This document shows, piece after piece, positions 15,607-43,308 of a DNA stretch of 64,000 nucleotides. The notes under the pieces are model-generated. The model worked only from the letters and a program-made list of their open reading frames with translations, was not told the DNA's origin and did not search any database. A program made the translations under genes and the position numbers. Position 1 is the first letter of the stretch. Every line of letters begins with the position of its first letter. Origin of the DNA: Bacteroidota bacterium (lineage in GTDB: Bacteria; Bacteroidota; Bacteroidia; Bacteroidales; UBA12481); the NCBI GenBank assembly GCA_018669475.1, contig JABHCC010000124.1, positions 62,001 through 126,000 on the forward strand, read 5' to 3'.

Positions 15607-16137
15607 ATGTGTGCGAATGGAATTATTATCGGAATCGGTGGTTTGTCCCGCTCTGGGAAAAGTTTTCTGGCTGATCAGTTAGCCGCAAAGCTGCAAGCCG
15701 AAGGAAAATCTGTAAATATTTTGTCACAGGATGATTTTGTTTTTCCAGAGGAGGAAATTCCATTAATAAGGAGTCATATTGACTGGGAAAGTCCTGATTC
15801 AATAGATTTTCAGGGATTTAAGGATGTTATAAGGCAGTCTGCCCAAAAACATGATTTTACTTTTGCTGAGGGTTTGTTGTCTTTTTGGGACTCCTCACTG
15901 TCAAATGATTATGATTATTGCTTCTTCATTGAATTATCACAAGAGGAATATATCAGGCGAAAAAATATGGATTTGCGTTGGGGTAAGGAACCAGATTGGT
16001 ATGTTGAACATATTTGGAATTCATTTCAGAAATATGGTCAGATTCCACAGGGAATGAAAATGGATATGATTCTCAATGGGGATAATGATTTTGATATTGC
16101 AGGCATTTACAAAAAAATTATACGGGCCGATTCGTGA
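15607..16137 (+). CDS. Uridine-kinase-like P-loop kinase
   Basis: This 176-residue protein has an N-terminal P-loop (IGIGGLSRSGKS, with Walker Lys and Ser at about residues 16-17), a substrate-side Asp in LSQDDFVFPE, a DFTFAEGLLSF strand and a lid-like basic segment (EEYIRRKNMDLRWG). This order matches the uridine/pantothenate/nicotinamide-riboside kinase superfamily in a short form. The phosphate acceptor cannot be told. Its last codons (Arg-Ala-Asp-Ser-stop) are formed by the first copy of the 22-bp palindrome at 16124-16145. It is convergent with the class V PLP enzyme. Confidence 0.7.
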   Translation: MCANGIIIGIGGLSRSGKSFLADQLAAKLQAEGKSVNILSQDDFVFPEEEIPLIRSHIDWESPDSIDFQGFKDVIRQSAQKHDFTFAEGLLSFWDSSLSNDYDYCFFIELSQEEYIRRKNMDLRWGKEPDWYVEHIWNSFQKYGQIPQGMKMDMILNGDNDFDIAGIYKKIIRADS

Positions 16138-16145
16138 ATCGGCCC
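16124..16145. repeat. 22-bp palindrome, copy 1 (forms stop codon of kinase gene)
   Basis: The left arm is GGGCCGATTC and the right arm its reverse complement, with GT in the centre. It overlaps the last codons of the plus-strand kinase gene and could also end transcription. Confidence 0.9.
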
Positions 16146-16169
16146 CTCACGATTTACCGTTTTGGATGT

Positions 16170-16191
16170 GGGCCGATTCATGAATCGGCCC
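16170..16191. repeat. 22-bp palindrome, copy 2 (forms stop codon of PLP enzyme gene)
   Basis: It has the same arms as the copy at 16124 with AT in the centre, 24 bp away. On the minus strand it supplies Gly-Ala-Asp-Ser-stop of the PLP enzyme gene. Confidence 0.9.
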
Positions 16192-17386
16192 CTAATACTT
16201 TATCCAAAACTTTGATTAATTGTTGGGTTTCTTCCATTGTGTTGTAATGTACCATTGATATTCGAATCACTCCGTTTTGTTGTCGTAGCTTTAAATCGTC
16301 GATTAATCGGGCGGCGTAAAAATCTCCAAAACGGATTGCAATTTTATGCTTATCGGTTTTCAGTACTATTGATTCACTGTCAATATCACCTGCAACAAAT
16401 GATATGGTGGGAACACGAATAGCTTTATCAAAGCTTTTTGGTCCGATAATGCGGACTGACTTTTTGGTTTCCAGAAAAGAAATTAATTCTTTGCACAGCT
16501 TCTCCTCATGATCAGCTATGAGCTCAAATATATTTTGAGTATTATGATGAACAGCCAGATTATTGAAGTAATCTACAATTCCTGTTACCCCCCATGCGAG
16601 TTCGTAATTAACATTACCAGGCTGGAATTTATAGGCTGTTTCATTCTGACCAATGAAATAGTGGTTGTTGCCAGGCAGTTCAAGTAAATGCTGTTTTTTA
16701 CCATACATCATTGCATAATGCGGACCGTATGTTTTGTAAAAACTGTACACATAAAAGTCAACATCCCAGTCTTGCACATCAATTGGTCGGTGAGGTGCAT
16801 AGGCCACAGCATCAACACAAACCCAAGCCCCGTATTCATGTGCTAATTGTGTAATCTCTTTAACCGGATTAATTCTGCCGAGGATATTTGATGTATGAGT
16901 GAAGGCAACAAGCCTGGTTTTATCCGAGAGGAGTTTCTTCAAGTCATCAAGTTCCAATTCGAATGATCCGGGATTGATTTTCCAGGTCTTGATAACAAAG
17001 CCCAGGTTCTCAAGTTCACGCCATGCTCCGATATTAGCTTCATGGTCGCAATTGGTCACAATGATTTCACCACCGGCGGGAAAGTATTTGCCAATATTCA
17101 TTGCAAGAATTCTAATCAGCATGCTGGTGGATGAACCCATTACTATTTCGCCAGAATCAGCGGCATTAATGTACTTAGCCATAATATGCTGATTATCAAT
17201 CATTCTTTGTGTAGCCAGGTGAGAAGTGTGATATGTGGCACCCAGCTGAACATTTGAGCTTGTGATAAATTCATTGATTCGATGAATTGCTGCCTGGGTC
17301 ATTTGAGAACCACCGGCATTATCCATTAAAATCCAATCACTTTGGAGTCCGGGGAATTGCTTACGGATGTACGATAGATCGAGCAT
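16178..17386 (-). CDS. Class V aminotransferase / cysteine-desulfurase-like PLP enzyme
   Basis: The ATG at 17386 gives 402 residues starting MLDLSYIRKQFPGL, the usual start of this family; a longer frame to 17446 looks non-native. Conserved parts are MDNAGGSQM (substrate-binding start), TNCDHEANIGAWRELE, the PLP-ring Asp in VCVDAVAYAPHRP and the Schiff-base Lys in SFYKTYGPHYAMMYG. The C-terminal small domain ends in RISMVHYNTMEE. No Cys is seen in the loop where SufS/IscS carry their sulfur-relay cysteine, and YKTYGPHY matches the branch often annotated as cysteine desulfurase-like SAM-dependent or VC1184 family. The true substrate is open. Its C-terminus (ADS) is made by palindrome copy 2. 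Confidence 0.85.
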   Translation of the reverse strand: MLDLSYIRKQFPGLQSDWILMDNAGGSQMTQAAIHRINEFITSSNVQLGATYHTSHLATQRMIDNQHIMAKYINAADSGEIVMGSSTSMLIRILAMNIGKYFPAGGEIIVTNCDHEANIGAWRELENLGFVIKTWKINPGSFELELDDLKKLLSDKTRLVAFTHTSNILGRINPVKEITQLAHEYGAWVCVDAVAYAPHRPIDVQDWDVDFYVYSFYKTYGPHYAMMYGKKQHLLELPGNNHYFIGQNETAYKFQPGNVNYELAWGVTGIVDYFNNLAVHHNTQNIFELIADHEEKLCKELISFLETKKSVRIIGPKSFDKAIRVPTISFVAGDIDSESIVLKTDKHKIAIRFGDFYAARLIDDLKLRQQNGVIRISMVHYNTMEETQQLIKVLDKVLGADS

Positions 17387-17467
17387 AATTTGTAATTTTG
17401 GTAAAGCATCGTGGCAGAGGCCGCTTTGTAAACCGGTATTTGCCACAAAAACGCAATTCTCGAAATT

Positions 17468-43195: not shown

Positions 43196-43233
43196 ATAAG
43201 TAATAAATTCGACAGTAAAGGAGAGAGGCAATG

Positions 43234-43308
43234 GTCCCTGGTCGTTGGTCCTTGGTCGTTGGTCCCTGGTCGTTGGTCAGTCCCTGGTCCCCTTGTCCCT
43301 AGTCCCTT
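43234..43308. repeat. Heptanucleotide tandem array (about 10 units)
   Basis: Units alternate GTCCCTG and GTCGTTG (with GTCCTTG), then become irregular (GTCA, GTCCCCTT, GTCCCTA, GTCCCTT). The first six units form three 14-bp double units. It ends 6 bp from the peptidase stop codon and lies between that stop and the terminator at 43156. Confidence 0.85.

Follow-up and report, generated by a model that had tools for sequence, protein, structure and literature searches.

Our analyses indicate, with a probability of about 85%, that a pair of REP-like palindromes has been inserted at the ends of two convergent genes, and that it supplies the C-terminal tails, ending in Ala-Asp-Ser (ADS), and the stop codons of both. 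The site lies in a stretch of 64,000 nucleotides (hereafter, the window) from the genome of a member of the Bacteroidota (G000; 5,556,786 bases, or 5.56 Mb, in 215 contigs, 95.4% complete). The site is genuine, owes its two gene ends to a repeat and is accounted for by known biology. The features concerned, in window coordinates, are as follows.

15607..16137, plus strand: P-loop kinase-like protein of 176 aa, with its last residues ADS and its stop from copy 1
16124..16145, no strand: palindrome copy 1, GGGCCGATTC-GT-GAATCGGCCC, ADS-stop on the plus strand
16146..16169, no strand: spacer of 24 bp between copies 1 and 2
16170..16191, no strand: palindrome copy 2, GGGCCGATTC-AT-GAATCGGCCC, ADS-stop on the minus strand
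16178..17446, minus strand: class-V aminotransferase / cysteine-desulfurase-like PLP enzyme of 422 aa, with GADS and its stop at copy 2

The original prediction of two near-identical palindromes lying 24 bp apart is borne out by these coordinates and by the spacer; the copies start 46 bp from one another, in a 22-24-22 layout of 68 bp. Copy 2 is a perfect 22-bp palindrome and copy 1 leaves its central GT unpaired, while the spacer contains CACGATTTAC, which, judged by eye, resembles a decayed half-unit (GATTCACGAA...) beside the copies on contigs C41 and C182. The plus-strand ORF (15607-16137) ends in ...KKIIRADS with its TGA inside copy 1, and the minus-strand ORF (17446-16178) ends in ...DKVLGADS with its TGA inside copy 2, so the translations agree with the predicted assignment of copy 1 to the end of the kinase and of copy 2 to that of the PLP enzyme. 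The two facing proteins share the ADS end because one palindrome sequence landed in the same frame twice: ADS-stop-IG is readable in one of the three palindrome frames, in which the central dinucleotide gives the T of TGA, and the remaining two (of GPIHESA and GRFMNRP type) are stop-free and read through. A stop built in for either orientation, as had also been proposed, is thus found in that single frame and in copy 2, which has TGA on both strands, but not in copy 1, which has TGA on the plus strand only and reads ADSRIG, without a stop, on the minus strand. As for the genes themselves, the kinase-like protein had no match in Pfam, and its NCBIfam matches of uridine-kinase type were weak and far under the cut-off; the minus-strand protein is a class-V aminotransferase according to Pfam and is nearest to cysteine-desulfurase-like models, the best being TIGR01976 (339 bits, the cut-off being 352).

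Comparison with orthologues indicates that the ADS ends of both proteins most likely derive from the repeat. We compared 10 PLP orthologues from eight genera (L061-L068, L152, L153; 49-64% identity by blastp), a set that excludes more distant family members with identity below about 40%. None ends in ADS; nine end at the residue aligned with L418 of the PLP enzyme, just before GADS, and one (L068) ends one residue later. The seven kinase orthologues (L091-L096, L162), with one short partial match, in G003, and 18 weak P-loop hits (E > 1e-5) set aside, have varied termini, such as ...KAKS in L162, and none of them ends in ADS either. All 10 PLP and all seven kinase orthologues that lack the repeat therefore also lack ADS, in agreement with the capture proposed at the outset, and no case of ADS without the repeat occurred among the 17. 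The same-genus genome G001 (62% complete) yielded no close orthologue of the kinase or of the PLP enzyme, and the nearest comparison is therefore at family or order level, without an orthologous empty site. The presence of ADS in both convergent proteins could also be read as a functional C-terminal tag, for stability or localisation, gained via the repeat. We consider this highly improbable, given the absence of ADS from 17 of 17 orthologues, the fact that other copies in the same genome make no ADS ends, and the constraint that any protein ending within the palindrome at TGA can only end in ADS. As a separate observation, a different repeat array, made of GTGCCCGTAGGGGTTTT units, lies downstream of the PLP orthologue in G004 (L061), and the 3′ end of this gene, there and in the window, looks as if repeats often collect at it.

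The palindrome is a sparse dispersed repeat in G000. Its exact 20-mer core with central R has three occurrences, one on C41 and two in the window, and allowing up to 2 mismatches to the 22-mer gives six copies at five places (C41, C58 with the window pair, C71, C182 and C68), so that the whole-genome count suggested with the original prediction places it well beyond the window; the control pattern read backwards gave no match in G000 at up to 2 mismatches. Three copies, on C41, C71 and C68, lie between convergent ORFs, about 39, 22 and 24 bp past the plus-strand stop. The copy on C182 (G000:C182:18339-18437; L007 / L030) is accompanied by several decayed half-units (GATTCACGAACCGG...); together they lie in frame inside an open frame of 580 aa that matches the GKRP SIS domain and C-terminal lid. 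This insert occupies about residues 438-472, ahead of the lid domain, and adds about 35 residues; in a comparison with 60 genomes of the order, matches to this ORF cover only the domains flanking it. Stop codons are thus overlapped by two of the six copies, both in the window, with three copies past stops and one inside an ORF. We therefore rejected the palindrome as a general maker of ADS ends, since four of the six copies overlap no stop; the ADS end is not a general property of the repeat. A broader count, of GC-rich hairpins whose arms measure 9 bp or more, gave 17 in 463,361 bp of the same genome (the window and 20 further stretches), of which three overlap a stop codon, two of these being the window copies.

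Beyond G000, matches with up to 2 mismatches were found in the family sample (12 genomes) only in G000 itself and in the same-genus G001, whose copy lies between convergent genes, directly after a gene ending in TAG, that is, in the position of a REP foot. Exact GGGSCGATTCNNGAATCGSCCC occurs in 4 of the 393 genomes of the order sample (G000, G344, G502, G618), and matches with up to 1 mismatch occur in 8 of the 296 genomes of the phylum sample, including G000. A scan of named genomes yielded one contig, from a Bacteroidetes MAG (JAPLDJ010000017.1), where the repeat surroundings are identical in reading to those in G502; the assignment of the window to the Bacteroidota rests on this match. Outside G000, the order sample contributes five places, in diverse settings: one is clearly between convergent genes (L151), two are between same-direction ORFs (L147, L149), one palindrome is in frame within a 584-aa ORF (L148), and another is 5′ of a plus ORF with an uncertain left neighbour (L150). 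Independent copies on other contigs of G000, in G001 and in the named MAG make chance palindromes or an assembly artefact the most improbable of the explanations that we weighed. The assembly does consist of 215 contigs, with unknown quality at the site, but the flanking genes are both whole, and the four strand-matches seen in the window at up to 3 mismatches compare with none in 100 dinucleotide-preserving shuffles of the window.

The location of the copies is biased within the family. All six intergenic places are convergent (four of the palindrome and one of a sister palindrome in G000, plus one in G001), although convergent calls followed a simple, crude ORF rule and the numbers are small. 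Convergent gaps make up 47 of the 276 positive gaps (17%) and 18% of the gap bases in the 463,361 bp of the own genome, and the 6/6 observed against about 18% expected corresponds to 0.183^6 = 3.8e-5 if the places are independent. Without the window place and two extra places, 3/3 remain convergent (p 0.006; own-genome CGATTC copies). The order-level places outside the own genome do not show this bias (1/5 clearly convergent). The sister palindrome just mentioned is on C53 (L019, G000:C53:18890-18957), where two copies of a different 22-bp sequence, GGGTCGAATCACGATTCGGCCC, repeat the 46-bp register of the window pair, again between convergent ORFs, and copy 1 forms part of the end of a 66-aa plus ORF (tail SNHDSAHRLTKP). 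It is conceivable, although speculative and improbable in our view, that the 68-bp pair (22-24-22) itself moves as a ready-made gene end, with a stop, a short tail and a hairpin for two facing genes, and that sister families sharing this paired architecture are selected or targeted for convergent 3′ ends.

The convergent placement could alternatively reflect a selected bidirectional transcription terminator, the coding overlap then being incidental. On each strand of a 91-nt stretch the two copies pair into a single long hairpin (-48.2 and -45.8 kcal/mol, with z-scores of -8.0 and -7.3 for the two strands), a 1.3-kb segment contains 4 terminator-like sites where shuffles give 0.9 +/- 1.0, and the C41 copy is followed by CTTTTT. 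The T-runs after the window copies are weak, however (CTAATACTTTA on the plus strand and GTATAATTTT on the minus strand), and a terminator would leave unexplained the near-identical copies at unlinked places, the copy within the GKRP-like ORF and the sister form in transposase genes. We therefore regard this explanation as unlikely and favour the insertion of a REP-like pair. Rfam returned two sub-threshold microRNA matches over the pair, which we dismissed as fortuitous hits to a long hairpin.

The link to mobile elements comes from relatives in the phylum. Seven genomes with matches other than G000 have 15 palindrome places, of which we examined 13 loci, one of GGGCCG type (L052, G057) and 12 of GGGGCG type (G037, G049, G065, G111, G174, G202). 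The GTAGGGGCGATTCATGAATCGCCCCTAC-type palindrome, which is one mirrored base pair apart from the window palindrome, lies inside a Y1-transposase-like reading frame in 8 of 12 loci from six phylum relatives. In these eight it comes just past the HUH stretch MPNHIHGIIEI, NHIHGIIEI or similar, and some of the frames are broken by stops. Four whole Y1 ORFs that we inspected run from NHIH through VGAIHESPL, encoded by the repeat, and WQ to YIxNNP (three) or YIKTNP (one), spelled out as YIKNNP, YIKNNP, YIINNP and YIKTNP. Of four ORFs or ORF pieces submitted to Pfam (L048, L049, L053, L051), two matched Y1_Tnp over the cut-off, one fell just under it and one had no match. These motifs give the palindrome-bearing Y1 genes of the phylum relatives the signature of RAYT subclass 2.4. 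In the window's own family, a Y1 gene in G010 (L045, G010:C15) also has subclass-2.4-like motifs (NHFH...WQ...YIRNNP) and carries two palindromes of its own, GTAGGGGAGGACCCGCGGGTCCTCCCCTAC and GGGAGGACCCGCGGGTCCTCCC, with GTAG...CTAC.

No cognate subclass 2.4 transposase was found in the G000 assembly (95.4% complete). The sole Y1 gene (PF01797) found there, on C180, reads DHVH...YIKNQREHH, the signature of subclass 1.2, which is listed without REPs, and the window palindrome was not seen in the 3.3-kb locus of this gene. We rejected a link to this transposase, given its subclass 1.2 signature and its lack of a flanking palindrome. The original idea that a REP-like or small mobile element had been inserted thus gains from the dispersal of the repeat and from relatives tied to Y1/RAYT genes elsewhere, but no transposase able to move the repeat was found in the assembly. 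Judged by their sequence, the window palindromes can be considered REP-like and related to the REPs of subclass 2.4; they are not strict members of that class, because they lack the GTAG foot and no cognate gene was found.

PMC6006769 describes double-foot REPs as flanked by GT[AG]G on one side and by the reverse complement of this foot on the other, in the form GTAGGGGCGATTCATGAATCGCCCCTAC. As in those of TnpA_REP subclass 2.4 (RAYT group 4) in that paper, the window copies form a long palindromic hairpin with a G/C-rich base, and other Bacteroidota have a relative, one mirrored base pair off, in frame within subclass-2.4-like tnpA genes. The stem of each copy as RNA has 9 pairs, a 4-nt loop and a GGG/CCC base, within the range of 7-20 nt used for REPs. 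By contrast with subclass 2.4 REPs, the window copies have no GTAG foot, number about six in the genome and come with no subclass 2.4 gene that we could find. A GTAG or GTGG foot is present on neither side in any of the six own-genome copies, the nearest being TTAG at copy 2 and, outside G000, ATAG at the G001 copy; the foot is present as GTAG in the order relative L151 and also occurs in the f24 loci. A cognate tnpA_REP was found for the sister palindrome in phylum relatives and not for G000. The own-genome repeat is dispersed, with 6 copies at five places, a number far under that of classical REPs, which usually exceed 100 copies according to the abstract of PMC2817692.

According to PMC3733652, REPs lie mainly between convergent and same-direction ORFs, and those in convergent gaps are frequently no more than 20 bp from either 3′ end; GTAG REP termini “often provide” flanking ORFs with their TAG stop; and REPs also occur within ORFs, slightly more than 10% of the intragenic repeats being at the ends of coding regions. 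The phenomenon is therefore already published, and the window is one more case of it. Like the GTAG-tagged REPs of that paper, our repeat lies between convergent ORFs, overlaps coding ends, supplies stops and also occurs within ORFs. There, however, the stop is the TAG of the tag, as in the G001 copy, where a TAG stop stands at the tag position, whereas the two window genes both use a TGA in the middle of the palindrome, read in one frame. The in-frame C182 copy is also reminiscent of Rickettsia palindromic elements (RPE), which the same paper describes as short palindromic repeats in frame in protein genes, although these belong to a different phylum and have a different sequence. Literature searches were limited to open-access sources: among the papers listed for the repeat letters or their translation, the titles pointed to unrelated assay, gene or genome studies, VGAIHESP-type strings were absent, and a narrow search for palindromes, stop codons and convergent genes returned one review on frameshifting.

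The following scenario would account for the site. Short REP-like palindromes, akin to the double-foot REPs of subclass 2.4, would have been inserted as a pair between the convergent 3′ ends by a Y1 transposase acting in trans, which may since have been lost or may be unassembled. Insertion at each old stop, or within a residue or so of it, would have created the frame reading (G)ADS-TGA; each gene would thereby have gained, or swapped its end for, a short and presumably harmless tail ending in ADS, and would now use the TGA at the palindrome centre. The neutrality of the tail is presumed, and any role of the pair as a terminator or RNA hairpin would be equally conjectural. The site offers a clean and directly checkable case in which one repeat has altered the C-termini of two host proteins together, and it connects a sparse Bacteroidota palindrome with one particular transposase subclass, the genes of which contain a sister repeat. 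It also calls for caution in annotation, as a C-terminal ADS or an internal VGAIHESP or GRFMNRP can be repeat-derived rather than conserved protein sequence.

Other repeats were noticed along the way. Tandem arrays of TGGTCCCTGGTCGTTGGTC type occur in the window (43232-43278) and in L115, L127 and L134, and the GGTCGTTGGTC unit turned up again in three of the 20 stretches that were sampled. In one of these, L115, the unit neighbours a further palindrome (CGTTCGGACTAAAGTCCGAACG), which overlaps a long ORF at its stop.
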